DNA of 49,080 nucleotides, from contig DUOD01000007.1 in the NCBI GenBank assembly GCA_012838995.1, positions 1 through 49,080 of the forward strand, written 5' to 3'. Both the position numbers and the translations under genes were made by a program. Shown here in pieces: positions 5,794 through 47,123 of this stretch. The notes beneath the pieces are model-generated. The model saw nothing but the letters and a program-made list of their open reading frames with translations. It did no database searches and had not been told where the DNA came from. Source of the DNA: Clostridiales bacterium (GTDB lineage: Bacteria; Bacillota; Clostridia; DUOD01). The first letter of the stretch is position 1; the number at the start of each line of letters is the position of its first letter.

Positions 5794-6390
5794 AAGCAAA
5801 ACTATCGGGAGCGAAGGTTATTGTGAATGTTCTAGATGATAGTGTCATATGTTCTATTAAGCCAAACTATCGGGGACGAAAGACACCGGCGCATGCCTTG
5901 CTCTACGGCACCATATTTTCTATTAAACTTTAGATAACAAAGATGTTGGCAAATGCCCTGGCCCATGATGTTATATATATTTAAGCAAAATCTTCGAGGA
6001 CAAAAGACATTGGCGAATGCCCTGTCAATTATGAAATATATTCTGTTGAGCAAACCAATGGGCGAAAGACATTGGCGGATGCATCGGACAATAGTGCCGT
6101 GAATTCTATTGAGTAAAACCATTAGAGCGAAAGACCTTAGCGAATGTCCTGTCCAATGGCGCAATATTTTCTGTTAAGCAAGATTATCGTGAACGAAAGG
6201 AATTTATGGATGCTTCGGTCCATAGTGCAATATACACAATTGTGCAAAACCTTCAGGGACGGAGGATATTGATGAATGCTTTGTCCTATGGGGGCTATAC
6301 ATTATATGAAGCTAAATTATCGTAGACCAAAAACATTGGTGTATGCCCCGGCTCTATACAGCCATATATCCTTTTAAACCAAATAAAGGG
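5794..6390. repeat. degenerate 65-bp tandem repeat array, nine units plus a partial
   Basis: Units begin near 5794, 5859, 5924, 5983, 6048, 6111, 6176, 6242 and 6308, with a partial unit from about 6375. Each starts like AAGCAAAACTATCGGGGA, continues with a core like CGAAAGACATTGGCGAATG and ends like ATATTCTATT. Spacing is 59-67 bases, mostly 65. Units share perhaps two thirds of their bases. A minus-strand open frame across part of it is a by-product of the repetition. The array fills the gap between the transporter operon and the kinase gene. No spacers and no coding evidence. Confidence 0.85.
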
Positions 6391-6742: not shown

Positions 6743-8239
6743 ATGGAAAAGAAATATGTAATTGCCGTGGATCAGGGTACAACGGGGACAAGGGTAGTGC
6801 TTTTCAACAGGCAGGGTGAAATTGTGGACTGGGCATACAGGGAGATAGAACAGATTTATCCCCACCCTGGTTGGGTTGAGCACAATCCAATGGAGTATTT
6901 CGATACAATGATGGATTGCATGGGGGAAATCTTTGACAGGAGCCGGGTTAATCCGGATTATATAGCGTCCATAGGAATAACCTGTCAGCGGGAAACCACT
7001 ATTTTGTGGGACAAGGACACCGGTATGCCGGTATATAACGCAATCGTATGGCAAAGCAGGCAGACGGCAGCGATATGCGACGAATATAAGGAAAAGGGAT
7101 ATGAAGACATTGTTAGGGAGAAGACGGGATTGGTAATCGATCCCTATTTTTCGGTTTCCAAGATCAAATGGATACTGGAAAATGTCGACGGTGTCAAAGA
7201 TAAGGTAGGGCAAGGGAAAATACTTATGGGTACCGTGGATACATGGCTTATATGGAAATTAAGCTGTGGAGCCTATCACGTAACTGACCATACCAATGCC
7301 TCAAGAACCCAGTTATTTAATATTAAAACCTTAAGCTGGGATGAAGAGCTATTTGAAATGTTCGGCATACCCCAAGAAATTATGCCTGAGGTGGTACCTT
7401 CATGCGGTATCTGTGCATACACAAGCAAAGATGTATTTTTCGGAAAAGAAGTGCCCATAGCAGGTGTGATAGGTGACCAGCAGGCAGCTACCTTCGGACA
7501 GGCATGTTTCGAGCCCGGGCTGGGAAAGAACACCTATGGTACCTCCCTGGCTTTTATGATGAATATCGGAACAAGGCCGGTGTTATCCCAAAGTAGAATG
7601 CTTACCGATCTTTTGTGGCATATGGACGGTACTACCCATTACGCCTTGGAGGCCATAATTTTTGTGGGCGGGGCTGCCATATAGTGGTTAAGGGATGGAC
7701 TGAGAATAATAGACAGCCCGTCGGAGTGCGATAAACTGGCCCAAAGGGTTGATGACACCGGCGGGGTGTATACCGTACCTGCCTTTACCGGGATGGGTTT
7801 TCCCCATTGGGATCCCTATGCCAGGGGCTTGATAATCGGTATTACCAGGGGTACCACAAAGGAACACGTGGCCAGGAGCGTGCTTGAGTCCTTGGCATAT
7901 CAGACAAGGGATATGCTGGAGGCCGCGACCCGGGATTCGGGACAAAAGGCGGTGGCGTTGAGGGTGGACGGCGGTGCTACAAAGAGCGAGTTTTTGATGC
8001 AGTTTCAGGCCGATATTTTAGGCATTCCCGTTTATAAGCCAGCAATAACCGAAATGGCGGCTTTGGGCGCAGCCTATTTGGCCGGACTGGGCGCGGATTT
8101 TTGGAAGGATGTGGACGAGATAGGCAAATTATGGAAAGTGGATAAAATTTATGAGCCCAAGATGCCGACGGAAAAGAGCGAACAATTATACCACGGCTGG
8201 AAAAAGGCCATAAAACGGTCCCTGAACTGGGCAAAATGA
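6743..8239 (+). pseudogene. glpK: glycerol kinase-like FGGY kinase interrupted by one in-frame TAG
   Basis: The frame from 6743 to 8239 encodes 498 codons, the normal GlpK length, with a single TAG at 7682-7684. The part before it has DQGTTGTR, CQRETTILWDKDTG, the catalytic-Asp segment GDQQAATFGQ and NTYGTS. After it the homology continues at once: WLRDGLRIIDS, PAFTGMGFPHWDPYARG, VDGGATKSEFLMQFQADIL and ALGAAYLAGL. In other GlpK proteins the interrupted position is the Q of IQWLRD, so CAG to TAG explains the stop. The second half (in-frame GTG at 7766) has no ribosome site of its own. Some residues differ from the usual motif (YFSVSKIKWIL; usual YFSGTKLKWIL), so this may be a divergent paralogue. 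A base-calling error remains possible. Confidence 0.85.
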
Positions 8240-10217: not shown

Positions 10218-10328
10218 AAGTATTATTATAAATCAAACCAAAGTATAACCAATACCATACCAAAGGATACTTTCTAATCTTTTGGAATAACAATACACTA
10301 TATATACCAAATCCCAAAATTTATCAAC

Positions 10329-10415: not shown

Positions 10416-11246
10416 ATGGGCAGGAGAATATTTACTCTGTGCCTCATATTGGCCCTTTTCTTTTCATTATCGGCATCAAGCAGCTATTCTTCAGCCTCCG
10501 TTGCCAGCAGTGCAAGGCTTAGAATTGTGGAATCCAAGGATGCCCTTTTGGCGGTAAAAGAAGCACCCCCGGAATTGGGCGCTAAGTCGGACAATGGCCA
10601 TTTGCTTACCGGGCAAAGCAGGTATTTTGCAGTTAAAATCTATACCATAAAAAACAATTCTTCCAATACCATGGATGTTAAGCTGAAGTGTACCAAATCC
10701 TTCGATGATGCCAGGGTGTATATATACACAGGCAAGGACAAGCCGGTTAAATGGCAGAAATGGAAAACCCTCAAACCGGGAAAAAGCATAAAGGCAATTG
10801 TGTTAGTTCAAGGCAGTCGTCAACTTCCCGGCAAAGTGCCTTTGGAGCTTAAGGGAAAATGGAAATGGGGCAGTGCAAAGGTGTGGTGGTCGTTTGATGC
10901 TACGGAAAATCAACAGGTTATAGAAGAGGTCGGGCCGAAGGTGGATGAGCAACCAACCGATGAACAGCCAACAAGCGGACAGTTAAAGGAGAATATAGAA
11001 ACAAAGGTAGAAACAAGCCAGGATGAAACAAAGGATACGGAGCAAGAAAATATCGAGAAACGGGATAAAGATACAAAGGATGAAGGGCAGCAACAAAAAG
11101 ATACAAAGGATGAAGGGCAGCAACAAGATGTAGGGGAGCAGCAAAAGGAGAGTAAAGAACAGCAGCAGGACACCGGCGACGATCCCCAAGACATTGTGCA
11201 AAATAGCGATTTGATGGAAGAAACAAAAGAAAACGGTGACCATTAG
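10416..11246 (+). CDS. secreted protein with beta-type domain and acidic repetitive tail
   Basis: This 276-residue protein starts at an ATG with AAGGAGGTG just upstream. Residues 1-30 are a signal peptide ending near SASVASSA. The following about 140 residues include SARLRIVESKDALLAV and IKNNSSNTMDVKLKC, which resemble the N-terminus and the 'KNNS' strand of the two short secreted proteins at 15118 and 15984, so I place it tentatively with that family. From about residue 175 the tail is Glu/Lys/Asp/Gln-rich and contains KDTKDEGQQQ twice in tandem, encoded by a 30-bp direct repeat. No LPXTG motif or C-terminal membrane span is present. Probably exported; role unknown. Confidence 0.8.
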   Translation: MGRRIFTLCLILALFFSLSASSSYSSASVASSARLRIVESKDALLAVKEAPPELGAKSDNGHLLTGQSRYFAVKIYTIKNNSSNTMDVKLKCTKSFDDARVYIYTGKDKPVKWQKWKTLKPGKSIKAIVLVQGSRQLPGKVPLELKGKWKWGSAKVWWSFDATENQQVIEEVGPKVDEQPTDEQPTSGQLKENIETKVETSQDETKDTEQENIEKRDKDTKDEGQQQKDTKDEGQQQDVGEQQKESKEQQQDTGDDPQDIVQNSDLMEETKENGDH

Positions 11247-11370: not shown

Positions 11371-11388
11371 TCACAATCTTAATTGTGA
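11371..11388. promoter_or_regulatory. perfect inverted repeat before the sensor kinase gene
   Basis: TCACAAT-CTTA-ATTGTGA has 7-bp perfect arms and lies 48 bases before the kinase start. It looks like an operator for a dimeric regulator. A small mRNA hairpin is the alternative. Confidence 0.4.
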
Positions 11389-11435
11389 GTAATGACAAAA
11401 CAAAGCAATGCCCAATACAAGGAGGGCGGATACCA

Positions 11436-13157
11436 ATGTATAAGTGGATGGAAAACAGGCTTTTCAAAAAAACCTTGGACAAAATTGAAAAAGCGGCCGT
11501 TATTTACAGGTATATATCCTGGCTGGTTACGTCGGCCTTCTATTTAAGCGAGCCCAGGATGGATATTTCCTTTAAAATAGGCGTTGTGGCGGCATTGTTC
11601 ATTGCCATGGTGATATCCGCAAAAATATACATCAACTTGAGGGACGGAAAACTTTACTACTTTTTGGTATTTGCAGAGGTAATTGGCATAAGCTTTCTAA
11701 TCATACCAACCGGGGGCTTGAACAGCCCCTTTATTTGGTATGCTCTAAACCCAATACTTAATGCCGCATTGTCCGACCGACCCTTGTTATGTTGGACGGT
11801 TAACTTGGTCTTTTTAGCCGGCATAACGGTGATGAGCACTGTGTTCTTCAGACCCCTGTATTTATCGACTATCCTGTACGGTATAAGACCCACAGCCCTT
11901 ATTTTCATCCTTATCACCGTTGCCATTCGGCTTTCCTCCAGGATATTAAAGACCCTGTCGAGTCAGGCAGAAATACTTAGGCAGCAAAAGAAGGAACTGA
12001 TGGAGGCCAATGCCCAGCTGGAAGAATCAATAGATCATATCACCTCCCTTTACCATATGACCGAGGCCTTAACCGTCAGTACCGCCATAGAACAGATGAT
12101 CCATATCTTTTTGGTATATGCCAAACGGATTGTCAAAGGAGATATAATCGCTCTTTTGATAAAGAAGGACAGGCTGGGTTATCAATTGCTGGAGGATGAT
12201 CTCTTTATCATATACAAGGATGATATTCCCATAATAAACCGGCAAGCCTTTAAAGACATTATGCTGGACTATATTAATAATTTGGACGGTGGCCAGACGA
12301 TTATAGAACGGGATCTGGACACAATTGAACCCGGGCATGTGCTGATGACCGGCATAACCAGCGGCGGATGTTGTTACGGTGCCCTGGCACTGTTCGGCAA
12401 TGAAGTTGAACGGGACAGTAAATGTCAGCACCGCACCATGGCCTTTCTAGGCAGTATGTGCGGCGTTGCCATAGACAGGATCAAAAGCGTGGATATGCAA
12501 AACCACGTGCTGTTGGCCGAGGAACAAAAACGGATATCCAATGAGATGCATGATGTTGTATCCCATAATCTATTCAGTATCATCTATTGCAGCCAACAGC
12601 TATTAAATACTACGGACATGGCCCCCGAAAGGATGCGGGAAAAACTGACCGCCATCCGGGATACGGCCTCCATTGCCGCTAAGGAACTCAGAAAGTGTAT
12701 ATATAACCTCAACAACAAGGACGTTAATTATTTCGAAATAATGGGCGTATATTTAGGCAAACTTAAGGTATTGAACAATCTGGACATACATTTTAAAAAC
12801 GGGCTTACCCATGTCGATATGCCCAGTCCAAAGGTGCAGTACAGTATCTACAGGCTGGTTAGGGAGGCGGTGGGTAACGGTGTGCACCATGGAAAATGCA
12901 GTAAAATAAAGATTGATATATCCAGGGCGGGCAATGATATCAAGGTGTTGGTAGAGGATAACGGCATAGGATTCAATATTAAAGACACTTATGGGGAAAA
13001 TAAAGGCGGCCTGGGCTTAACCAACATCCATGCAGTGGCAAGGTCGGCCGGAGGCCGTGTTGACATACAAAGCCATATTGGAAGGGGTACAAGGTTAACC
13101 TGCACCATCCCTATCAATGATACCCATGCAATGGATAATAAGGAGGTAGTAGGATGA
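11436..13157 (+). CDS. membrane sensor histidine kinase, NarL/DegS-type (HisKA_3)
   Basis: I start it at the ATG at 11436 because GGAGGG precedes it by nine bases; the in-frame GTG at 11385 has no ribosome site. The 573-residue protein has five or six membrane spans in residues about 25-190, a coiled coil (QAEILRQQKKELMEANAQL), a GAF-like middle and a C-terminal kinase core. The phospho-accepting His is His372 in RISNEMHDVVSHNLFS. ATP-binding boxes are REAVGNGVHHG, VEDNGIGF and GGLGLTNIHAV. It overlaps the response regulator by four bases. The stimulus is unknown; the multi-span sensor with no large extracellular loop suggests a membrane or intracellular signal. Confidence 0.93.
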   Translation: MYKWMENRLFKKTLDKIEKAAVIYRYISWLVTSAFYLSEPRMDISFKIGVVAALFIAMVISAKIYINLRDGKLYYFLVFAEVIGISFLIIPTGGLNSPFIWYALNPILNAALSDRPLLCWTVNLVFLAGITVMSTVFFRPLYLSTILYGIRPTALIFILITVAIRLSSRILKTLSSQAEILRQQKKELMEANAQLEESIDHITSLYHMTEALTVSTAIEQMIHIFLVYAKRIVKGDIIALLIKKDRLGYQLLEDDLFIIYKDDIPIINRQAFKDIMLDYINNLDGGQTIIERDLDTIEPGHVLMTGITSGGCCYGALALFGNEVERDSKCQHRTMAFLGSMCGVAIDRIKSVDMQNHVLLAEEQKRISNEMHDVVSHNLFSIIYCSQQLLNTTDMAPERMREKLTAIRDTASIAAKELRKCIYNLNNKDVNYFEIMGVYLGKLKVLNNLDIHFKNGLTHVDMPSPKVQYSIYRLVREAVGNGVHHGKCSKIKIDISRAGNDIKVLVEDNGIGFNIKDTYGENKGGLGLTNIHAVARSAGGRVDIQSHIGRGTRLTCTIPINDTHAMDNKEVVG

Positions 13158-13777
13158 TAAGGATAGCCGTAGTGGACGACCATCCCCTGGTCAGGGAGGG
13201 TATAGAAGCGGTGTTGGGATGCCAACCGGATATGGAGATAGTAGGTTATGCAGGATCTTTGCAAGAAGCAAGGAAACTTATAGCCACCAAAAATCCGGAT
13301 ATGGTATTGTTGGATTTAAAGATAGGTGATGAACATGGCCTGGATTTGGTAAAGGATATAAGGGCAAGGAACCATGAATGTGCAATCGTGGTGCTCACCG
13401 CCTTTTTCGACGGTCAGGATATAAAAAGGGCCATGGATCTTAATATAAAAGGGTTTCTTTTAAAGGAGGCACTGCCTGAGGAAATGGTGGCTGCCGTAAG
13501 GATAGTTAGCAAAGGCAGGTCATATATAGATCCGGATATTATGGAGGAAATATTGAACAAAAAGAAGGACCACGGCCTCGATCAGCTAACCCCCCGGGAG
13601 GTGGACGTGCTGAAGGCAGTGGCCAAGGGAATGAACAACCGGGAAATCGCCAGCAATCTATTTGTAACCGAAAGCACGGTTAAAAAGCATATCAGTCAGA
13701 TCCTATCTAAGCTGGAGTTAAAGGACAGAACACAAGCGGCATTGTTTGCCATCAAGAACGGGATAGTTCACCTTTAA
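13154..13777 (+). CDS. NarL/LuxR-family response regulator
   Basis: This 207-residue protein has a complete receiver domain: acidic pair Asp8-Asp9 (VVDDHPLVREG), phospho-acceptor Asp54 (MVLLDLKIGDE), Thr in VLTAF and Lys in FLLKEA. A LuxR-type helix-turn-helix follows (LTPREVDVLKAVAKGM, then TESTVKKHISQILSKL). It is translationally coupled to the kinase before it (ATGA overlap) and should be its partner. Its last 26 bases overlap the convergent signal peptidase gene. Because the surface-protein genes next door carry TACC-N4-GGTA inverted repeats of the sort NarL-family proteins recognise, I infer that they are its targets. Confidence 0.94.
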   Translation: MIRIAVVDDHPLVREGIEAVLGCQPDMEIVGYAGSLQEARKLIATKNPDMVLLDLKIGDEHGLDLVKDIRARNHECAIVVLTAFFDGQDIKRAMDLNIKGFLLKEALPEEMVAAVRIVSKGRSYIDPDIMEEILNKKKDHGLDQLTPREVDVLKAVAKGMNNREIASNLFVTESTVKKHISQILSKLELKDRTQAALFAIKNGIVHL

Positions 13778-14885
13778 TCCGCCGGATTCTTTGGCGTATA
13801 ACCTTGGCGGTACTTTTGCGCATTTTTTTATCCAATACAGGGTACAGCATCAGCGGCAGGCCGGGTATAAGGGATATTACTATAAGGGCCAGCCAATAGC
13901 TGCGTTGGGCTAAGACGTGTATCCAATCAAGGGGTAGCAGCGGGAAAAACATGCCCACCCTGATGGAGGAGTTATAATCCCCCGGATTTAACGCCTTCAC
14001 CGTCATTTGAGTTTCGACATACTGCCCGGGTTTTAAGATAAGCTTGTCCCGGCTAAAAGAAATTTGTTCATCATCGGTGGTAATGGACACCAAAAGAGGG
14101 AAAAAACCGTTATTATTAAACTCGGCCAGGGGACGATCTACCTCGTCACCTATCTTCAACACCCCCACATTGCTGCCCATCAAAGCAGCCTCTTCGGTCT
14201 CTGAAACACCGTATGAAAGGTTTAGATGCTGGCTGGTGGCCAGCATACTGGCGCCTACCATAACGGCTATGGTAAGGCCGCTGAAAAAATATATTAGCTG
14301 CATATCCAAACTTTCGGTCTTTTCGGTCTTAGCATGTTTCCCCTTTTTAGTGTTTTTTAATTCGCCTACGGCTATGATGACTGCCAGTATAACGGCTATA
14401 ATAGGCAGCAGTAATTGGCTGTTTTTGGACTGTTCGGCGTACAGGGCCAGATGCCCCAACAGAGGTATCTTAAGGGGTTTGCCCCTCAGTACCAAGGCCT
14501 TGCCGGCAATCCATTCGGGTTTTATGGGAGGTATACCCATATCCTCTTGATCGGTCCGTTCATTGGCATCGCCCTTGGTGATAAACCCGTCCCTGGCATT
14601 GCCGTCGGTAATCCTGTGCATCATCCAATCATTGATTATATAGTTCCCCTCTTCCACTCTGAATACGATTATGTCCTTTGTTGATAGGGAATCCTTTGAC
14701 GAGAATTCATTAAGAATTACCAAATCTCCCCTTTCCAGCTGGGGATACATACTGTTTGATCTAATGGCCGTCATTAAAAAGGGCTGTTTGGCGACGATGG
14801 TGCCGACGGCGGATACCGCCATAAAGGCAGCGATAACGTATATTATTATCGTGACAACCAGCTTGAATATCTTTGTGGACTTCAT
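13752..14885 (-). CDS. sipW: SipW-type (ER-type) signal peptidase I with extended C-terminal domain
   Basis: This 377-residue membrane protein starts at 14885 with AAGGAGG eight bases upstream on the minus strand. An N-terminal span (residues about 7-30) precedes the catalytic Ser45 in IRSNSMYPQLERGD. As in the archaeal/ER class, the second key residue appears to be a His (His90 in WMMHRITD) rather than Lys, followed by GFITKGDANERTDQE. After two more spans there is an extracytoplasmic beta-rich segment of about 120 residues and a last span (WLALIVISLIPGLPLMLYPV), longer than Bacillus SipW (about 190 residues). SipW enzymes process TasA/camelysin-type proteins, and two such genes lie divergently next to it. 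Confidence 0.9.
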   Translation of the reverse strand: MKSTKIFKLVVTIIIYVIAAFMAVSAVGTIVAKQPFLMTAIRSNSMYPQLERGDLVILNEFSSKDSLSTKDIIVFRVEEGNYIINDWMMHRITDGNARDGFITKGDANERTDQEDMGIPPIKPEWIAGKALVLRGKPLKIPLLGHLALYAEQSKNSQLLLPIIAVILAVIIAVGELKNTKKGKHAKTEKTESLDMQLIYFFSGLTIAVMVGASMLATSQHLNLSYGVSETEEAALMGSNVGVLKIGDEVDRPLAEFNNNGFFPLLVSITTDDEQISFSRDKLILKPGQYVETQMTVKALNPGDYNSSIRVGMFFPLLPLDWIHVLAQRSYWLALIVISLIPGLPLMLYPVLDKKMRKSTAKVIRQRIRRIKGELSRS

Positions 14886-14977
14886 GGATTTCGCCTCCTT
14901 TTGTACTATTTACTATTTTATAGCAATTGTTTTTTGGACAAACCCCTCTTTGGTAGAAAAGATACGGTACTAAAGTA

Positions 14978-14989
14978 TACCATGGGGTA
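14978..14989. promoter_or_regulatory. inverted repeat TACC-N4-GGTA, copy 1
   Basis: TACCATGGGGTA lies between the divergent sipW and secreted-protein genes, 79 bases upstream of the TATAAT of the latter. The same element is at 15844-15855, a wider form (TACC-N7-GGTA) at 16797-16811 and a variant TACT-GTAG-GGTA at 20224-20235. NarL-type regulators bind TACYYMT-like half-sites, so the neighbouring response regulator is a plausible ligand. Confidence 0.45.
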
Positions 14990-15067
14990 CTGCGGTGGGG
15001 TTTTTGGGTGTAAATTGGTGAAATAAAGACTACCCTTTGGCGTGATGTAAATAATTTCAAGGGAAAT

Positions 15068-15073
15068 TATAAT
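15068..15073 (+). promoter_or_regulatory. -10 box TATAAT of the first short secreted-protein gene
   Basis: A perfect TATAAT lies 45 bases before the start codon. The base context 17 bases upstream (ATGTAA) is a poor -35, which fits a promoter that needs an activator. An identical box is at 15934-15939 in the duplicate. Confidence 0.5.
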
Positions 15074-15117
15074 GGGGGTGTGCATGGCACAATAATAATG
15101 ATTTGGAGGTATACAAA

Positions 15118-15663
15118 ATGAGAAAAGGTTTAATCTTAGTAGTAGTACTGCTCTGCGTAGCCGGCCTGATGGCAGCCATGGCTTACACTACGGCAACGGT
15201 TAATAATGATGCGAGCGTGAAATTAACCAATACCAGTCAAGCGCTTTTATCATTATCACCAAGTCCCATTCATAATGCATCATATCTAAAAAAGACTACT
15301 GCTCATTTATTAATAATTGATTTATCGAAGGGATACAATAATGACACCTTTGGTGTTCAACCCTTTAGCGTTTATACTTGGGAAGATCTTTTTAAAGTAA
15401 AGAACAATTCTGAAAACACGGTTAAAGTATCCATAGAATTAGATCCAAAAGCACAGGGAAGGATAAAAGTGTCTGCTAAGGCTGACGATAAATGGGTTTT
15501 ACTCTCGGGCATACATAGCAATGGAAGCGTACTTTCTTTCACCCTCGCACCAAATGCAGAACAATGGGTATCTATGAAGACCGATTCGTTGAATGGTCAT
15601 GTAACAACTTTAAATTATAATTTAATTGTAAGTGCTGAAGCTCAAAGCTCAACACTTAACTGA
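15118..15663 (+). CDS. short secreted surface protein 1 (DUF1102/TasA-camelysin-like)
   Basis: The ATG at 15118 follows GGAGGT by seven bases and gives 181 residues; the TTG at 15103 overlaps the ribosome site and is rejected. Residues 1-26 are a signal peptide of the SipW-cognate style (VVVLLCVAGLMAAMAYTTA). The mature part begins VNNDASVKLTNTS and contains FGVQPFSVYTWEDLFKVKNN, a motif shared with the next gene and with the LPXTG-type protein. A beta-sandwich export substrate of the adjacent SipW peptidase is likely. No anchor motif is present, so it may polymerise or bind the wall non-covalently. The family name is inferred from motifs only. Confidence 0.85.
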   Translation: MRKGLILVVVLLCVAGLMAAMAYTTATVNNDASVKLTNTSQALLSLSPSPIHNASYLKKTTAHLLIIDLSKGYNNDTFGVQPFSVYTWEDLFKVKNNSENTVKVSIELDPKAQGRIKVSAKADDKWVLLSGIHSNGSVLSFTLAPNAEQWVSMKTDSLNGHVTTLNYNLIVSAEAQSSTLN

Positions 15664-15673
15664 TATTAAGATT

Positions 15674-15715
15674 AAGCCATGGACAGGACGGTTCTCCCTG
15701 TCCATGGCTTTTTAT
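15674..15715 (+). terminator. intrinsic terminator after secreted protein 1
   Basis: AAGCCATGGACAGG (15674-15687) pairs perfectly with 15697-15710 around a nine-base loop, followed by TTTTTATTTT. It lies 11 bases after the stop, so the two secreted-protein genes are separate transcription units. Confidence 0.9.
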
Positions 15716-15828
15716 TTTCAATCCATTGTATGGGCAAATAAAGCAACTGTTTTTCTTTCAAACTAAATAAGTATTTAATTACATCAAGGTATGCCGGGCA
15801 TGACTATGCTTTAGTGTCATAAAGCTTA

Positions 15829-16058
15829 TACGGTACAAAAGTATACCATGGGGTACCGCAGTGGGATTTTTGGGTATAAATTGGTGAAGTAAAGACTACC
15901 CTTTGGCGTGATGTAAATAATTTCAAGGGAAATTATAATGGGGGTGTGCATAGCACAAAAATAATGATTTGGAGGTATTCAAGATGAAGAAAAGTTTAGT
16001 TTTAGTAGTAGTGCTGCTGTGCGTTGCCGGCCTGATGGCAGCCATGGCTTATACAAAT
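15829..16058 (+). repeat. copy 2 of the duplicated promoter/leader/signal-peptide segment
   Basis: It matches 14963-15192 without a net gap. Differences are mostly single substitutions; in the hairpin at 15946-15958 the stem TGTGC/GCACA is kept and only the loop changes (ATA for ATG). It includes the inverted repeat at 15844-15855 and TATAAT at 15934-15939. The similarity stops at the mature protein, so promoter and export signal stayed alike while the cargo diverged. Confidence 0.9.
15844..15855. promoter_or_regulatory. inverted repeat TACC-N4-GGTA, copy 2
   Basis: TACCATGGGGTA, identical to 14978-14989 and at the same distance from TATAAT (79 bases). Candidate operator for the locus regulator. 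Confidence 0.45.
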
Positions 16059-16613
16059 GCCTATGTAGCTAACGATGCCAGTATGACAATTGTAGATACA
16101 ACGGATGGTTCGTTGGAATTAGGTACTGTCGGTGGCAAAGGAAATGAGGATTTGACTGCACGAATAGACGAAAATGGTAATTTAGTATTTAATTTTGCTA
16201 AAGGAAATCTTGGCAAAGACTTTGGTTTTCAGCGCAACAGTATTTACGGATGGGAAAGGCTATTCTATGTAAAGAACAATTCATCAGAACCGGTTTGGTA
16301 TACAATTGAAAATGAAGGTTTGACCAATATATGGATCGGACCGGAATGGTGGCTAGGCAATGCGAAAAACCATGATTTTTGGTTTATTACTGATGGGATA
16401 ATTAACCCTAACGCCGGAACTCGCGGTGTAGAAGGATATGCTGTTGTGAATGGCCAGCTGTGGAGAAAATTAGCTCCGGATCAAAAACATCGTATAACGG
16501 TAAAATTCTTCATTGAAGACGATGAAAATGTAACTCTGAATGGAAGAATAATTGTAAAAGCAGCGGCTGGTAACACCATTGGTGATAGGAGTTATTTAAT
16601 GACTGACAAATAA
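15984..16613 (+). CDS. short secreted surface protein 2 (DUF1102/TasA-camelysin-like)
   Basis: The ATG at 15984 follows GGAGGT; the product has 209 residues. The signal peptide (VVVLLCVAGLMAAMAYTNA) is almost the same as in protein 1, and the mature start VANDASMTIVDTTDGSLELG is typical of the family. FGFQRNSIYGWERLFYVKNN is the shared motif. The rest is unlike protein 1 and rich in Trp/Gly (IWIGPEWWLGNAKNHDFWF). It is probably processed by the adjacent SipW peptidase. No C-terminal anchor. It may be an alternative or minor subunit of the same surface structure. Confidence 0.85.
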   Translation: MKKSLVLVVVLLCVAGLMAAMAYTNAYVANDASMTIVDTTDGSLELGTVGGKGNEDLTARIDENGNLVFNFAKGNLGKDFGFQRNSIYGWERLFYVKNNSSEPVWYTIENEGLTNIWIGPEWWLGNAKNHDFWFITDGIINPNAGTRGVEGYAVVNGQLWRKLAPDQKHRITVKFFIEDDENVTLNGRIIVKAAAGNTIGDRSYLMTDK

Positions 16614-16703
16614 ATGTTAATACGGCGTAGGCGTGAACACTGAGGGATTCTCACGGTTCATGGATTCTATTTAAATCTGTATAAGTTTATATAAACCTTG
16701 AAG

Positions 16704-16734
16704 CAGCTGTTACTACGGTAGCGGCTGTTTTTTT
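16704..16734 (+). terminator. intrinsic terminator after secreted protein 2
   Basis: CAGCTGTTAC (16704-16713) pairs with GTAGCGGCTG (16718-16727) with two G-U pairs and a TACG loop, then TTTTTTT. The 383-base gap 16614-16996 also holds a weaker imperfect hairpin near 16631 and the inverted repeat at 16797. Confidence 0.8.
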
Positions 16735-16796
16735 GGTTTCAATTTGTCAAAAAATGTGTGATTATGCTAAAGGGCCGTGGTATAATTATACAAAAG

Positions 16797-16811
16797 TACC
16801 CTGATTAGGTA
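16797..16811. promoter_or_regulatory. inverted repeat TACC-N7-GGTA before the M6 protease gene
   Basis: TACCCTGATTAGGTA has TACC and GGTA arms and the local context AAAAGTA like the sites at 14978 and 15844, but a wider gap. It lies about 190 bases before the protease start. Possible further target of the locus regulator. Confidence 0.35.
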
Positions 16812-16996
16812 TTGAATAGGTAAGTTCATTGTCGGCAATCCGTTTTAATCAAGTTATTAAGTGCATTAGCAGAATTAAGGATATTGCCTTAATGGAATAT
16901 TTATAAAAAAGAAAGCACCGCGGCCCGCATTTTATAAAGGCTAAAGATAAAAGGGAGACGGCCAAGGACCGGTCCTGCATAACAAGGAGATTAAAT

Positions 16997-18463
16997 ATGC
17001 AAAGGATAAGCAAAATAAGCATTATACTTATATGTATCATATTCATATTCATTTTATCTTCCTGCAGTTTGATTTTTGATGCCGACTATTACCGTAGCAC
17101 CTTCGCTGATACATCCCATATAGAAAAAAGCGGCAAGGACCGGAGCTATGGCCAACGTCGCAAGAATTTCGGGGATATACAAAATGCGAAAAATATCCAC
17201 AATGTATTGGTGGTGTTGATAGAATTCGATGATGTCAAGCTAAAGACCGACGCCCTGGATTGGTATGAACAAATATTTCAAAGGGGGGCCAATAGCGTCA
17301 ACGATTATTACGCGGAGATGTCCAACAATCTTTTTAGCTTTGTTCCCGCTCGGGAAAACCACGGCATAATCGATGACGGCATAGTGGAAGTAAGTTTGGG
17401 GCTTGACCATCCGGGAGATTCAGATAATGATTTGGAAGCATTTATTGCGGTTTTCAGTGCCCTGGAGGCCGCCGACGAGTATGTGGATTTTGCTTCCTTT
17501 GATGCCAATAATGACGGTGTTATTGCATGCCATGAACTCCATATCATCTGTGTGCTGGCCGGGTATGAAGGAGACCCAGAATTGGAAGACGGGCCTTGTG
17601 TAAGTAGTTACTTTTCTTGGTTATCCGATGATTTGTATAAATTCACCCTGGATAATAAAATGCTTAACACCTTTATATACACCGGCGAATTGTACTTTGA
17701 TGAGCTCAATACCGGAAGGGACAGCATAGCCACCATCTCCATAATATGCCATGAACTGGGTCATTCTTTGGGTTTGCCGGACCTGTACGATACCGATGAA
17801 AGCTCCCTGGGGGTGGGCGTCCACAGCCTCATGGGTTCGGGTACCGCCGCCCTGCGGGAAGGGGAGCTCATAGGCGAGACACCGGTGCCCCTCGATCCCT
17901 GGAGCATGATCTTCTTAGGGTTTATAGAACCCACGGTGGTTACACAATCCGGTGAATATAAGGTATACTCAGCCTCCACGGGAAAGTATAACATCCTCAA
18001 AATACCCACGCCAAATCCCAATGAGTATTACCTCATAGAAAACCGTCAGCTGGAGGGGTATTATAGGGCCTTGGAAAAGGAAATAAAGGGCGGTGGCGTG
18101 GCCATATGGCATATAGACGAGTCGGTAATCAATGACTCGATAGTAGACGAGTATGGTACAAAAATGGTGGACGGCCTTATAAACGATGACGAGTCCCGTA
18201 AAGGGGTGGCCCTTATAGAAGCAAGCATGTCGGACCTAGGTTATAGCCAGCTGGACGACTTGGAACCGGGCATGGATCTTAATGAAGAAATATACAACAA
18301 CTATGACCACTATTTTTACTTGGGCGGAAATAATGTATTCGGGCCGGATACCACCCCGTCCAGCACTTTAAACGACGGTAGTCCCTCTAACATAACCGTT
18401 ATTGTTGGCAGTAGCGGTCCGGTAATGGATGTAAAGGTAAAGCTGGGGCAGCCAAACAAATAG
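16997..18463 (+). CDS. M6-family metalloprotease lipoprotein (immune inhibitor A-like)
   Basis: This 488-residue protein has a hydrophobic N-terminus ending in LSSCS, so it should be lipid-anchored at about Cys23. The zinc site is HELGH at residues 252-256, within SIICHELGHSLGLPDLYD, followed by the VHSLMGSG Met-turn-like segment; both are typical of M6 peptidases. YYLIENRQLEGYY and GGGVAIWHIDES are further family segments. AAGGAG lies just before the ATG at 16997. It sits between the secreted-protein genes and the LPXTG/sortase pair, so it may trim or turn over the surface proteins; that role is inferred from position. No inactive-site change is visible. Confidence 0.9.
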   Translation: MQRISKISIILICIIFIFILSSCSLIFDADYYRSTFADTSHIEKSGKDRSYGQRRKNFGDIQNAKNIHNVLVVLIEFDDVKLKTDALDWYEQIFQRGANSVNDYYAEMSNNLFSFVPARENHGIIDDGIVEVSLGLDHPGDSDNDLEAFIAVFSALEAADEYVDFASFDANNDGVIACHELHIICVLAGYEGDPELEDGPCVSSYFSWLSDDLYKFTLDNKMLNTFIYTGELYFDELNTGRDSIATISIICHELGHSLGLPDLYDTDESSLGVGVHSLMGSGTAALREGELIGETPVPLDPWSMIFLGFIEPTVVTQSGEYKVYSASTGKYNILKIPTPNPNEYYLIENRQLEGYYRALEKEIKGGGVAIWHIDESVINDSIVDEYGTKMVDGLINDDESRKGVALIEASMSDLGYSQLDDLEPGMDLNEEIYNNYDHYFYLGGNNVFGPDTTPSSTLNDGSPSNITVIVGSSGPVMDVKVKLGQPNK

Positions 18464-18486
18464 TCAGGTTACCAATTAATTGTTTA

Positions 18487-18516
18487 GGATAAGTCCAAAG
18501 GGACTTATCCTTTTTT
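18487..18516 (+). terminator. intrinsic terminator after the M6 protease gene
   Basis: GGATAAGTCC-AAAG-GGACTTATCC is a perfect 10-bp stem followed by TTTTTT. Confidence 0.92.
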
Positions 18517-18678
18517 AATGCCGGTAGGACGGTACTTTCGTGGAGTTTATAATGTATCCTATTTTCCCGATAAAAGTATCCCTACGAACTATATAAAAAA
18601 TTCCCTGCTGAAATAAAATTAAGTTAGGAAACAGGCTAAATAACGGGCTAAATACGCTTTCGAAGGGAGGTGGGTTGT

Positions 18679-19473
18679 ATGAAGAGGGGGACGATAGCAA
18701 AAATTGTTATCGTGGGCTTATTTCTAAGCATAGTACTAAATATGGCCGGAGCCTCAGTCAATATGCTTATGGTGGGCAGCTGTAGGGGAGGGGCCGGTAT
18801 TATGTCAGTCATGGCTACCGGTCCGAAGGACAGCAAGCTGAAATTCGAGCCTAATACGGGCGTGGGGTATAGGGATAATACAGTATACAAGAAGGGTGCT
18901 GGCCTTGAAATAAATTTCGCTGCCGGCTATGGTGATGACGAAGGCCAGGGCAGCTACGGCTTTCAGCCCAACAGTACCTATAGATTTGAAAACCTCTTTA
19001 AGGTGGTGAACAAAAGCAAGGATACCGTTAAGCTGTGGATAACGGTACACGGTTTTTTCAGTGATTTTGACTGGGTAAAGGTATATAGCGACAATAATTG
19101 GAACAAGGACCTTGATCCATGGAGCAACCCAATTTATTTAAAGGGCAATGAAAGCTTTTTCATGAGCGTGGTCTTTGAAGACATACCTTTCGATATGGCA
19201 TTGGGTCAATACCTGGGAAGCATTAGATTCCATACCGAAGAACCCCGTCCTGAAGAAATTATCCCAATCCCCGAGGAGCCCAGTGCCGGGGGACCTACCC
19301 CAATTACCGAAAAGCCACCTGCTGAAGAAATTTCGATAATTGACGAAGAGCTACCCACCGGTTATTTGCCGGGTACCGGCGGACCGGGACCGGCCGTTAT
19401 TCTACCGGTAGGCATCGGAGCCGGGCTGGTGGCCATGGGGATTGGCATGAGGCATAGAAGGAAAAGAAAATAA
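18679..19473 (+). CDS. LPXTG-type surface protein with shared beta-domain
   Basis: The ATG at 18679 follows GGGAGG by eight bases; the product has 264 residues. It has an N-terminal signal (KIVIVGLFLSIVLNMAGASV), then a domain with YGFQPNSTYRFENLFKVVNK, the motif seen in the two short secreted proteins, and a Pro/Glu-rich stalk with the loose repeat PxxEEIxxIxEEP. The C-terminus is a sorting signal: LPGTGG, a hydrophobic stretch (VILPVGIGAGLVAMGIGM) and the basic tail RHRRKRK. The sortase gene follows 41 bases later, so it is very probably its substrate and could be the wall-anchored base or cap of the structure. Confidence 0.9.
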   Translation: MKRGTIAKIVIVGLFLSIVLNMAGASVNMLMVGSCRGGAGIMSVMATGPKDSKLKFEPNTGVGYRDNTVYKKGAGLEINFAAGYGDDEGQGSYGFQPNSTYRFENLFKVVNKSKDTVKLWITVHGFFSDFDWVKVYSDNNWNKDLDPWSNPIYLKGNESFFMSVVFEDIPFDMALGQYLGSIRFHTEEPRPEEIIPIPEEPSAGGPTPITEKPPAEEISIIDEELPTGYLPGTGGPGPAVILPVGIGAGLVAMGIGMRHRRKRK

Positions 19474-19514
19474 GACAGCGGATTTTAGGGGAAGGCAGGG
19501 GTAGTAACGTATCC

Positions 19515-20144
19515 ATGAAGAGGTACTTGACGATTATTTTGATAGTAACAGGGATGGCGTTAATGCTTATACCTTTTGCCGGTGATCTTTACTGGTTAAG
19601 TAGGCCGGTTCTTATGGAAGGAAACGGCGAGATACCGGAGGTAGGCATAGATGTTGTGAGGGAAGACGGGTATGTGAGGGGTGAGGATTTACAGAAAGAC
19701 ATCCACACCCCTCCCTTTCCCAGGGAGGATTACAAAACCGGTATGATGGTGCTTAGCATACCGAAGCTGGGGCTTGTTAGCGGGGTTGTCGAGGGCACCA
19801 CCGAGGAATACCTGGAGCAAGGACCGGGACTTTATGAGATAAGCCCCCTGCCCGATGAGGAGTGGGGGAATGTATGCATCGCGGGCCATAGAAACGCCCA
19901 TGGCTCTCCCTTCCGTTATGTCGACAAACTGCAGGCGGGGGATGAAATAGTGCTTATATTCAACGGCTTTAAGTATGTCTACCACACTCAACGGGTGTTT
20001 ATAGTGGAGCCCGATGATTGGACGATAACCGAGCCGGTGGGTTATAACTGTCTTACCCTTACCAGCTGCCATCCGCTAAGGCCGCCCTATAAAAGGATTG
20101 TGGTAAGGGCACGCCTCAAGGAAAGGGTGGCTTTGGAACAATAA
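19515..20144 (+). CDS. class D sortase
   Basis: This 209-residue transpeptidase has an N-terminal membrane anchor (residues about 4-28) and the catalytic fold. The active site is His125 (CIAGHRNAHGSPF), Cys185 (LTLTSCHP) and Arg194 (PPYKRIVVRARL). TLTSCHP and GHR with the spacing seen here suit class D enzymes of spore-formers. The ribosome site is a modest GGCAGGGG. It should cut LPGTG of the preceding protein and join it to the wall or to another subunit. Some class D sortases act in sporulation; the neighbours here point to surface-protein assembly. Confidence 0.92.
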   Translation: MKRYLTIILIVTGMALMLIPFAGDLYWLSRPVLMEGNGEIPEVGIDVVREDGYVRGEDLQKDIHTPPFPREDYKTGMMVLSIPKLGLVSGVVEGTTEEYLEQGPGLYEISPLPDEEWGNVCIAGHRNAHGSPFRYVDKLQAGDEIVLIFNGFKYVYHTQRVFIVEPDDWTITEPVGYNCLTLTSCHPLRPPYKRIVVRARLKERVALEQ

Positions 20145-20223
20145 ACGGAGAATACAAAAATCAATACAAAGTATGGCATTACTAAAACCCACGAAGGATT
20201 ATCAACACCGCCAAAAGATAGTA

Positions 20224-20235
20224 TACTGTAGGGTA
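20224..20235. promoter_or_regulatory. variant inverted repeat TACT-GTAG-GGTA
   Basis: It sits in the context AGTATACTGTAGGGTAC, matching AAGTATACCATGGGGTAC of the duplicated promoters, 32 bases before the next start codon. It is closer to the gene than in the other copies, so if it is a protein site it may repress or overlap the promoter. Confidence 0.35.
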
Positions 20236-20267
20236 CTCCAAAAATGTTTAAAGGTGGTAGTATACAA

Positions 20268-20642
20268 ATGAAAAGAACGATTGCCATGGTCATAAACCTC
20301 CTTATCGGTGCTTTTATCCTGTTTACCTGTGCCATGGTATATATAAACATCCGGGCCATGTGGGATCCCGGTTACACGCCCATGGTGGGTAAATTCTTGT
20401 TATTTACTCCCGCCGTCCAGGAGGATTGGGCGGCCGGTGAGGGCGGAGGCATGCTCTGGGGCCCGGGGGGATTTGTTATTATTACCATAGCAATCCTTAT
20501 TATAATAATTCTTTATGAAATCATGGGTATAGTGAGGGAAATAAAGGCTGCAAAAAAATCCAAAATGTTATCGGCAAGGGTTAAAAAGATAGACTTTAAA
20601 AAGAAACGCAGTTATCAAAATAAAATAACGGCAAAAAAATAA
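20268..20642 (+). CDS. small two-span membrane protein of the surface locus
   Basis: The ATG at 20268 follows AAGGTGG; the context GGTAGTATACAAATG resembles the starts of the two secreted-protein genes. The 124-residue product has a first span (VINLLIGAFILFTCAMVYIN), an outside loop of about 40 residues with EDWAAGEGGGMLWGPGG, a second span (IITIAILIIIILYEIMGI) and a very basic cytoplasmic tail (KKSKMLSARVKKIDFKKKR). I do not recognise a family. It follows the sortase and may be an assembly or anchoring partner. Confidence 0.75.
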   Translation: MKRTIAMVINLLIGAFILFTCAMVYINIRAMWDPGYTPMVGKFLLFTPAVQEDWAAGEGGGMLWGPGGFVIITIAILIIIILYEIMGIVREIKAAKKSKMLSARVKKIDFKKKRSYQNKITAKK

Positions 20643-23018: not shown

Positions 23019-23281
23019 ATGCGAATATTGATAAATTTTATTTTAATACGTCAAAATTTTATAAGGATACAAGGGCGATTGATGTATTATTACGACAAAT
23101 TAACGGGAAATGTGGTTATAATGTATTATTGTGTAGTGTGGATAGGCAACCGGGGAAATATTATGTACAAAGGAAGGTATGACCGCTGTTTTGTTGAATA
23201 TATTTTTGAGCATATCAACCATTGCTCATACCAAAGTAGTATTCGCTTATACTAAAACAGTATGAATTTAGGAGGGTGGCC

Positions 23282-23962
23282 ATGGAGAGAATAAAGATAA
23301 TGTTTGCCCATAGATGTAAAATAGTAATAGAGGGGTTTAAGTCTATCTTCAGTGCCGATGACTTCCATACAGTGGGACAAGCCTATGATGAAAAGAATGC
23401 GATGATGGGGGTTAGAACCCTAAAACCCGATATTTTAATAATAAACCCCGAGCTTTCCAAAACCGACAGCGGAGAGCTTATTAAAAAGCTAAAACAGACA
23501 GGGCAGTCCACCAAAGTGGTAGTATTGACCGATACCGACGACTATGATTATATTTATGAGTGTGTGGGCAACGGAGCCGACGGTTTTATATTCGAAGACG
23601 GGGATATAGAGAATAGTAAAATAGTGGACATGATAAGGCTGTTGTATAAATTTGATGTAGTGTGTATGCCCAAACCTGTCTTTAAAAGTTTGGTGAACCT
23701 GTCGGGTGATCGGAAGCCAAGCGGTGTCGGGCCCCTTAAACTGCTGACACCCCGGGAAAGAGAGGTGTATATGCTCATGGCCAAGAACTATTCCAACCAT
23801 GAGATAGGTAAGGCCCTTTTTATATCGGAGGCTACCGTCAAAAGCCATGTAAGCAGTATTTTGCGGAAATTCAAACAGCCCAGCCGTTCCAAGGCCGTGC
23901 TCTATGGTTTCCAAAACGGGGTGTTTAATATCAGGACCATTAATAAGATGGAAGTTTTATAG
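23282..23962 (+). CDS. LuxR-family regulator with a degenerate receiver domain
   Basis: The ATG at 23282 follows AGGAGGG by five or six bases; the product has 226 residues. The N-terminal 120 residues have the length and pattern of a receiver domain, but the key residues are changed: the acidic pair is His10-Arg11 (MFAHRCKIVIEG), the phospho-acceptor position is Asn55 (ILIINPEL) and the conserved Lys is Glu105 (GFIFEDGD). The Thr of VLTDTDD remains. A normal LuxR helix-turn-helix follows (LTPREREVYMLMAKNY, SEATVKSHVSSILRKF). It is a single gene with no kinase nearby, so it probably acts without phosphorylation. Confidence 0.9.
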   Translation: MERIKIMFAHRCKIVIEGFKSIFSADDFHTVGQAYDEKNAMMGVRTLKPDILIINPELSKTDSGELIKKLKQTGQSTKVVVLTDTDDYDYIYECVGNGADGFIFEDGDIENSKIVDMIRLLYKFDVVCMPKPVFKSLVNLSGDRKPSGVGPLKLLTPREREVYMLMAKNYSNHEIGKALFISEATVKSHVSSILRKFKQPSRSKAVLYGFQNGVFNIRTINKMEVL

Positions 23963-45431: not shown

Positions 45432-46301
45432 TTAAATGCCGCCCAAATTTGCCGGATTTCCTTCTTCCTTGCTTGTGTCTTTATAAACCAGAAACAGAAA
45501 GGCGGTAAAGACGGTAGTCAGTATGATTGTAATGGCATAGGATATTACGTCCATGTAATGAAAGGCGGGTATATCCAGCAGCGTACTGCGGTTAACGGCG
45601 CCGTACAATAGATTAAGGCCGATGACAACCGCCCAGCTTATTATGATGTACAATGCTCCAATGCCCAATATTGTCCAAAAATTTTTCTTTGCTGCCTTAA
45701 AACCCTTGGAAAGGCCGCTTATTACCCCTTCATCGTCCATTATAACAGCCGGCATCCAAAGGGACGTTAAAACACCTATTACCACCACCGATATTATTAT
45801 GGCTAAGACAGAGATTGCCAGTGCGATGATACTCCCTATGGTGAGGGTATTGAAGGGGTATATATGTCCCTTGCCGTGGAAACCGTCTCCCCAAAGGCTT
45901 AGGACCAATAACAAAACTCCCGGGATGCATATCACCAAAACAGCCAGTATCATGATGGCGATGATCAAAAGGGTGGCCAGTATTATTTTTCCCAAGTATT
46001 TTTTAACGCCTGTGCCAAAGTCCTTAAGAGATGTTTGATTGTTGTTTATAGCCGATTTAATCATGTTGCCGGTGCCGGCATAAATAATTAACCCCACCAA
46101 TGTCGCAACCAAAGTTATAACCACAAGGCTTCCCAGGCTTGTTACCATGGATAGCGGACTATGGACTGACAGCGTAAAATCTGTTGCATGGTTCATAATT
46201 AAAACATTGCATATGATGTTTAGAGCAAGGTTGCCTATTTGGGGTACCAGTATTACCGGGTGGGCGTTTATCAATTCATAGGCCTTTTTGACGTATCCCA
46301 T
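45432..46301 (-). CDS. multispan membrane protein of unknown function
   Basis: I start it at the ATG at 46301, nine bases after AAGGA on the minus strand; ATG 46310 directly touches that ribosome site. The 289-residue protein has about six membrane spans, with a cytoplasmic MGYVKKAYELINAHPV at the start, an FWTILGIGALYIIISWAVV span late, and LSKGFKAAKKNF between spans. The layout, with a charged helix before each pair of spans, is like that of proteins of the DUF975 or glycerophosphodiester-phosphodiesterase membrane-domain type. No catalytic residues are evident. Confidence 0.8.
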   Translation of the reverse strand: MGYVKKAYELINAHPVILVPQIGNLALNIICNVLIMNHATDFTLSVHSPLSMVTSLGSLVVITLVATLVGLIIYAGTGNMIKSAINNNQTSLKDFGTGVKKYLGKIILATLLIIAIMILAVLVICIPGVLLLVLSLWGDGFHGKGHIYPFNTLTIGSIIALAISVLAIIISVVVIGVLTSLWMPAVIMDDEGVISGLSKGFKAAKKNFWTILGIGALYIIISWAVVIGLNLLYGAVNRSTLLDIPAFHYMDVISYAITIILTTVFTAFLFLVYKDTSKEEGNPANLGGI

Positions 46302-46484
46302 TTTTATCATTCCTTAAATAATCTTTTTTAAATTGTAGCAAAAAGAGTATACCAATACAATAATATGAGACCGTAGAAGGAAATAAAATATTTTGTCTTT
46401 TTTTTGCAGGAAATATTAATGTTTTATAGAATTAATATTCATAGTCACTTTTGGTGGCTTTACGGAAAACAGGAGGTTTTTTCC

Positions 46485-47123
46485 TTGAATATTACAATGA
46501 GTAAGGTATCAATAGCGGTCAAGTGCTCCAAGTGCGGCAAGCTAAATATTGTCGAAGTACGGCCCTTTGATTTCTCCGGGGAGAAGGTGGTTGAAAGAAG
46601 ATGTGAATGTTTCAATATGCTGGTTACCCTCTCCCTTAGGAATAATAAATGCTGTGATATCCGTGTATGGTGCTTGGCCTGCAACAATATCCATAACTAC
46701 AGTGTAAAATGGAAGAGCATTTGGACCAAACGTGTTCTGGTACTATACTGTCCACTGTTTTCCTACGAAAATTGTCTAATAGGTCGAATAAAGGATATTT
46801 GTGTCATATTGGACAATAGAGATAAGAGATTGAATGATGCCCTAACCCACATGGAATGGAAGGAGCATTTCATTAATCCGGGGATTATGCTGGAAGTCTT
46901 CAACAGGATACAGGATTTCCACGACCAGGACAGGATAATTTGCCGGTGCGGCAGTAAGAATATAGTTGTAGGTTTAAACACCGATTCCATAAACCTTATG
47001 TGTAAAAATTGTATGGACAATACCCTTATCAGAGCATCAAATACATTGGATTTAAATCGTCTAAAGTCCGCGGATTTTATCTTTATCGGTGCCCGTCTAC
47101 AAACCCGGCGGTCTAACTATTAG
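46485..47123 (+). CDS. cysteine-rich zinc-ribbon-like protein of unknown function
   Basis: TTG 46485 is chosen because CAGGAGG lies eight bases upstream; the frame extends to 46404 without a ribosome site. The 212-residue product has several CxxC or CxC pairs: VKCSKCGKLN, RRCECFN, KCCDIRVWCLACNN, IICRCGSKN and MCKNC, all of which could bind zinc. The middle part is hydrophobic but not a membrane span. No domain I recognise. It sits upstream of rho with its own terminator. Its codon choice looks like that of its neighbours. Confidence 0.8.
   Translation: MNITMSKVSIAVKCSKCGKLNIVEVRPFDFSGEKVVERRCECFNMLVTLSLRNNKCCDIRVWCLACNNIHNYSVKWKSIWTKRVLVLYCPLFSYENCLIGRIKDICVILDNRDKRLNDALTHMEWKEHFINPGIMLEVFNRIQDFHDQDRIICRCGSKNIVVGLNTDSINLMCKNCMDNTLIRASNTLDLNRLKSADFIFIGARLQTRRSNY

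Follow-up and report, generated by a model that had tools for sequence, protein, structure and literature searches.

How fibres of the TasA type are held to the cells that make them is unsettled: an anchoring role of TapA has only been proposed, and for BsaA fibres no anchor is known. A gene cluster on contig DUOD01000007.1 of a Clostridiales bacterium (assembly GCA_012838995.1; the window is the whole stretch of 49,080 nucleotides analysed here) bears on this question. It encodes a sensor histidine kinase, a NarL-type response regulator, a SipW-type signal peptidase (SipX), a secreted protein (SecN), two related secreted proteins (D1 and D2), a third member of their family that ends in an LPGTGG sorting signal, a sortase, an M6 metalloprotease lipoprotein and a small membrane protein (Table 1). 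Our best reading, which we consider somewhat better than an even bet, is a strand-exchanged fibre that is controlled by the two-component system and carries a sortase-anchored terminal subunit. An initial annotation had already grouped the genes that it named at 13752-20642. All of them are present, but the kinase and regulator lie upstream of that interval, at 11385-13777, and SecN was missed.

What kind of proteins are the D proteins? D1 matches DUF1102 (PF06510) at 25.0 bits against a Pfam cut-off of 22.2, and D2, which has no Pfam match of its own, aligns with D1 at an E value of 1e-21. With the LPGTGG protein as query, a search of the whole genome at E<=1 returns only the query itself, D1 (E 3.8e-5) and D2 (E 4.4e-4). 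The motif shared by the three secreted proteins, which had been pointed out in the initial annotation, is therefore beyond chance. A 13-row profile of D proteins has a single match in the PDB, the Tafi pilin of Natrinema (9p0a), which aligns over 111 positions with E 6.9e-11. Modelled with AlphaFold, D1 is most similar to the bundling pilus of Pyrobaculum (7ueg, E 3.3e-4, TM 0.44), with FimA among the next matches. The PDB matches of another profile (A7) involved short repeats in designed WD-type propellers and were not used. The proposal that these are TasA/camelysin-type subunits is not borne out: neither Peptidase_M73 (PF12389) nor TIGR04088 matches D1, D2 or the LPGTGG protein at E<=1, and the D1 model has its best fold match in 7ueg. 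The equivalog models of TafA, TafC, TafE and TafF are likewise missed, with 12.6 bits for the best window protein against cut-offs of 155-190. Judged by sequence, the three proteins belong to the DUF1102/Taf pilin superfamily and not to TasA/camelysin proper, and they are likely to be fibre subunits of the wider Taf/TasA superfamily. Because the subunit is homologous, the locus is expected to function in the manner of TasA and Taf fibres, yet it is not a TasA operon. A segment that follows the signal peptide is conserved in the family alignment. Given the similarity in fold and by comparison with TasA, it may act as an N-terminal donor strand that completes the next D subunit.

D1 and D2 share more than a family. 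Over 240 bp of leader and signal-peptide region they are 73-100% identical (in steps of 30 bases), whereas beyond it identity falls to about 40% except at the FGxQ motif, and the D tree places them on separate branches. The repeated leader gives no RNA structure signal (z 0.24) and has the look of a cassette for expression and export that was reused. Of the earlier picture of a fibre or coat with one anchored and two exchangeable unanchored members, the fibre with one wall-anchored member and two unanchored ones survives as the best reading, while for "exchangeable" the shared leader is only suggestive.

Is the locus maintained in other genomes? A search of 391 genomes of the class with a profile of the three D proteins recovers relatives in 10, one of which is this genome; the family- and order-level genome sets contain this genome only. 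A core was drawn from the neighbourhoods of D relatives, from a scan of GTDB genomes with a SipX profile and from loci found later; a search of genome contigs with a single SipX protein gave no match. The core recurs in more than 15 Bacillota loci and consists of SecN, DUF5305, the kinase, the regulator, SipX and one to five D genes. Carriers include Lutispora, Paenisporosarcina, Bacillus sp. FJAT-29814, Chengkuizengella, Herbinix and a metagenome-assembled genome of the Peptococcaceae; some loci are without single core members, or have them beyond the contig ends. The core of Chengkuizengella axinellae includes five D genes, and its locus showed no anchored D. DUF5305, confirmed by Pfam, occurs in most of the bacterial relatives. 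In Archaeoglobales, Thermococcus and haloarchaea, D genes and SipX are found, often together with DUF5305, but this kinase and regulator are not, and the NCBIfam models of TafA, TafC, TafE and TafF match the haloarchaeal members. The kinase, regulator, SipW-type peptidase and D genes remain linked across relatives; the anchored D with its sortase is found in a minority, and queries with the M6 protease and the small membrane protein of the window found no match in the loci of relatives. These last two look like local extras, and membership of the M6 protease in the system is uncertain. In Lutispora (L022, 10879-15526) the D/SipX locus directly adjoins a classical SipW/TasA-type (Peptidase_M73) gene set.

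The anchored D subunit carries the argument about attachment. The LPGTGG protein ends in the sorting signal, a membrane stretch and an RRKRK tail. With anchors trimmed, nine anchored D rows, including the window protein and L135, form a clade against 44 others with support 97/85 (96/90 with five rows), which is to be read with caution because of long branches. Searches with the LPGTGG protein and its relatives brought up further D proteins with C-terminal anchors, which differ from one to another: LPQTS (L037, the same locus as L167 of genome G854), LPPTG (L168), PPTG (L171), PPQTG (L170), HPGTSG with a membrane stretch (L133), an SLH anchor (L034; PF00395, E 1.6e-18), and a membrane stretch with a cytoplasmic C-terminal part and no sorting signal (L169, 3423-4535). 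Most anchored D proteins start near the fold and seem to be without the AYTxATVxND-like segment found behind the signal of canonical D proteins. That DUF5305 is replaced by the LPGTGG/sortase pair was considered and rejected, as L034 and L037 carry both DUF5305 and an anchored D. The L169 locus also holds two extra SipW-like peptidases. At L037 the LPQTS-type anchored D and its likely start apparently lie in different reading frames, near a run of T (6060-6110), which appears to be a frameshift or sequencing error.

An anchored D with an adjacent sortase recurs in two other genomes. In G827 the sortase gene overlaps the stop of the anchored D gene. In G579 a contig with regulator, SipX, D and anchored D stops inside the anchor; a second contig starts with the same 24 bases, completes an LPFTGG signal, membrane stretch and RRRK tail, and runs into a sortase, so that the 24-base overlap and open frame suggest that the two contigs join. 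This sortase is 41-43% identical to that of the window and is its nearest relative among those compared. Three genomes (G774, G804, G796) have a sortase elsewhere, away from the anchored D, and no sortase was found in G518 or in G775, whose anchored D is of the SLH type. The window sortase itself matches the general Pfam model (PF04203; 90 bits against a cut-off of 26.6) and has the His, Cys and Arg motifs. The class D label given to it earlier is not supported: class E scores higher (97.2 bits against a cut-off of 160) than class D (73.6 against 165; 74-81 bits across class D models), all of them below their cut-offs, and the nearest solved chain is SrtE1.

Does the two-component system control these genes? 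Candidate regulon sites (Table 1) were ranked among 98,114 window positions with a matrix built from ten sites of other genomes only, because a matrix from the window's own sites would be circular. The best two stand upstream of D1 and D2, and another precedes the anchored-D/sortase pair; the site upstream of the M6 gene reaches only rank 106 with this matrix. The palindrome has two exact matches in this genome, one of them the site GGTACTAAAGTATACCATGGGGTAC before D1; the palindrome pattern overall shows no genome-wide excess (11 places against 12 for the reversed pattern). Among 8-mers, AGTATACC shows the strongest enrichment upstream of D genes. With window sequences excluded, it is found there at 7 of 23 outside loci against 0.33 expected and at no more than 3 in 300 shuffles. 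Inverted TACC-type half-sites fit a regulator of the NarL family. We infer from these sequences that the local regulator binds the palindromic site, and the promoters of D1, D2 and the anchored-D/sortase pair are quite likely under control of the local two-component system. The third-best match, at 46338-46361, lies between a DUF7847 membrane protein (45432-46310, minus strand) and an unassigned open reading frame (ORF; 46404-47123, plus strand) that is possibly another regulon member. A second NarL-type response regulator lies at 23276-23962, without an adjacent kinase.

Taken together, these parts suggest the following sequence of events. The kinase and regulator would switch on the promoters of D1, D2 and the anchored-D/sortase pair through the GGTAC-AAAGTATACC site, and probably that of SecN too. 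D1 and D2 would be exported and their signals cut by SipX as a dedicated peptidase. The freed N-terminal strand of each D subunit would, as in TasA, complete the beta-sandwich of the next, and SecN may start or aid assembly as TapA and CapP do. The LPGTGG protein keeps the fold and seems to be without a free N-terminal strand; it is therefore the candidate acceptor of the last donor strand, and the co-transcribed sortase would then join it to peptidoglycan. The fibre would thus be polar and covalently held to the wall, and might serve adhesion or biofilm formation. We regard it as somewhat more probable than not that the LPGTGG protein is a sortase-anchored terminal D subunit. The general statement is more tentative, and we put it a little short of an even chance: that a class of strand-exchanged fibres, so far undescribed, has a terminal-subunit clade anchored by LPXTG and its own sortase, by SLH domains or by transmembrane segments, which in the sortase case would join non-covalent polymerisation to covalent wall attachment. 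On the same tentative footing, the varied anchors of terminal subunits across different Bacillota would parallel the TafF-like proteins of archaea.

Several observations weigh against this. This genome, 98% complete, has no DUF5305, which is a core member in other genomes. The confidence of the D1 model is moderate (pLDDT 75, TM 0.44), the DUF1102 score of the LPGTGG protein (20.9 bits) is slightly below the 22.2 cut-off, and its branch in the tree is long. Most D loci are without an anchored D, TasA-type fibres elsewhere assemble without a sortase, and the genome holds three sortases and another LPXTG-type protein, a leucine-rich-repeat protein on contig C27, so the pairing of anchored D and sortase is not exclusive. 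The scarcity of anchored D, the other LPXTG-type protein and the two further sortases also speak for an alternative that we consider unlikely though the strongest of its kind: the D fibre is set free or held only loosely, as in C. perfringens and B. subtilis, while the LPGTGG protein, although of the same fold, acts apart from it as an adhesin or receptor bound to the wall, and its sortase serves several LPXTG proteins. In its favour, too, BsaA polymerises without its neighbouring sortase (PMC7395162). Against it, the anchored D proteins are one clade within the D family and are located in D loci, and the regulon site stands upstream of the anchored-D/sortase pair. Since the clade has SLH- or membrane-anchored equivalents, the shared trait is the anchoring of a D domain and not the sortase.

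Less probable still is that none of the three D proteins polymerises and that they make up a coat or a layer bound to the cell, or else serve as ligands of the kinase. No other genes are linked as constantly to D and SipX as the kinase and regulator, and fibres have not been observed; the homology of D to a solved pilin, the pilus as best fold match and the one to five tandem copies, as structural subunits would show, argue for a fibre. A classical pilus in which the sortase polymerises D1 and D2 would account for a sortase and an LPXTG protein in one locus, but it is very improbable and was rejected, as both shaft proteins end without a sorting signal or C-terminal membrane stretch, the D core has no adjoining sortase in most relatives, and several D genomes have no sortase at all.

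SipX matches the archaeal-type signal peptidase model TIGR02228 (73.9 bits against an NCBIfam cut-off of 51.85), and its Ser in SNSMYP, His in MHRI and Asp in KGDAN are invariant across alignment A3. The predicted structure of SecN is a generic Ig-like sandwich and its fold matches are generic Ig-like domains, so that SecN was rejected as a proven TapA homologue; it may be a TapA/CapP-like helper. The M6 domain scores 131 bits against a cut-off of 110.8, with a lipobox-like LSSC and HELGHSLGLPD present. Terminator-like stems behind D1, D2 and M6 suggest that the three are in separate transcription units.

Table 1. Features of the locus and candidate regulatory sites, in window coordinates.
Feature	Position	Strand	Basis or remark
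Weak copy of regulon site, upstream of SecN	10256-10274		rank 30
SecN, secreted	10416-11246	+	D-like N-terminus, Ig-like domain, disordered charged tail; homologues hold the equivalent place in relatives
Sensor histidine kinase	11385-13157	+	HisKA_3, Pfam; conserved core
NarL-type response regulator	13154-13777	+	Pfam and NCBIfam (NarL/GerE-type); conserved core
SipX, SipW-type signal peptidase with C-terminal Ig-like/membrane extension	13752-14885	-	TIGR02228
D1 leader and signal-peptide region	14961-15200	+	second copy ahead of D2, at about 15827-16066
Regulon site GGTACTAAAGTATACCATGGGGTAC, between SipX and D1	14966-14990	+	rank 2
D1, DUF1102/Taf-family, likely fibre subunit	15118-15663	+	PF06510 above cut-off; profile match 9p0a; model match 7ueg
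Terminator-like stem after D1	15686-15703	+	consensus scan
Regulon site upstream of D2	15832-15856	+	rank 1
D2, second D-family protein	15984-16613	+	D1 homology; family alignment
Terminator-like stem after D2	16700-16731	+	consensus scan
M6 metalloprotease lipoprotein	16997-18463	+	TIGR03296 above cut-off
Terminator-like stem after M6	18486-18511	+	consensus scan
Regulon site upstream of anchored D/sortase pair	18567-18590	+	rank 5
Anchored D subunit, LPGTGG signal at 19366-19383	18679-19473	+	D homology; anchored clade 97/85
Sortase, class D/E type	19515-20144	+	PF04203; starts 41 bases past anchored D
Palindrome AGTATACTGTAGGGTACT, upstream of small membrane protein	20220-20237		exact palindrome match; weak with outside matrix
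Small membrane protein, likelier start 20268	20268-20642	+	ORF; no family above cut-off (Pfam, NCBIfam)

The same genome has a second, camelysin/BsaA-type locus on contig C27 (L110, 461-5491), with two SipW-dependent secreted proteins and a sortase close by. Its proteins match Peptidase_M73/SipW-dependent signal models, unlike D1, D2 and the LPGTGG protein, and the NCBIfam BsaA model matches this locus and not D1 or D2. The SipW encoded there has 428 amino acids and an N-terminus like a response-regulator receiver domain. The leucine-rich-repeat surface protein of contig C27 (L111, 3338-4909) has an LPXTG-like end, PKTGG, and lies about 2 kb from the third sortase. Elsewhere in the window, a glycerol-kinase-like gene (6743-8239) is split into two ORFs (6743-7684 and 7766-8239), as by a frameshift or assembly error.

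How does the locus compare with known systems? The bundling pili of Pyrobaculum calidifontis (7ueg) are the best fold match of the D1 model but are not reached by the D sequence profile, and to our knowledge they have no two-component system or sortase. The tapA-sipW-tasA operon of B. subtilis and the CapP/TasA/CalY system of B. cereus share SipW-processed subunits and a beta-domain helper. TasA polymerises through N-terminal donor strands, and TapA may give the first one (PMC9674648). In CapP (PMC13082335) a beta N-domain is combined with a disordered C-domain by which the protein is attached to the wall, and SecN has the same layout. In these Bacillus systems, however, assembly involves no sortase and the regulators differ, and D1 and D2 have no Peptidase_M73/TasA match. 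The sipW-bsaABCRSD locus of C. perfringens contains SipW, secreted fibre proteins and a two-component system that is required, with srtB as a neighbour (PMC7395162). The earlier statement that no described system has all these parts was too strong, as this one shares several: SipW, several secreted proteins, the two-component system and a neighbouring sortase gene. BsaA, however, is without an LPXTG-like motif, and neither polymerisation nor pellicle formation there depends on srtB (PMC7395162), whereas the window locus has the LPGTGG protein. We could find no description of a self-contained set with a sensor, a likely archaeal-pilus-related fibre and an apparent sortase of its own for one subunit. 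A D clade with explicit wall or membrane anchors offers a direct, testable answer to how TasA-type fibres are attached. Taf fimbriae (Tafi pilus, 9p0a) are alike in the homologous subunit, in a SipW-type peptidase and DUF5305 as neighbours, and in a TafC-like accessory protein and a TafF-like DUF1102 protein with a C-terminal extension. They differ in that the window locus has a NarL-type two-component system and a sortase signal, has no DUF5305, and encodes proteins far below the Taf equivalog cut-offs. The comparison connects a pilus recently solved from archaea with Bacillota loci that would otherwise carry only the labels DUF1102 and DUF5305, and it provides them with a candidate regulator and DNA site.

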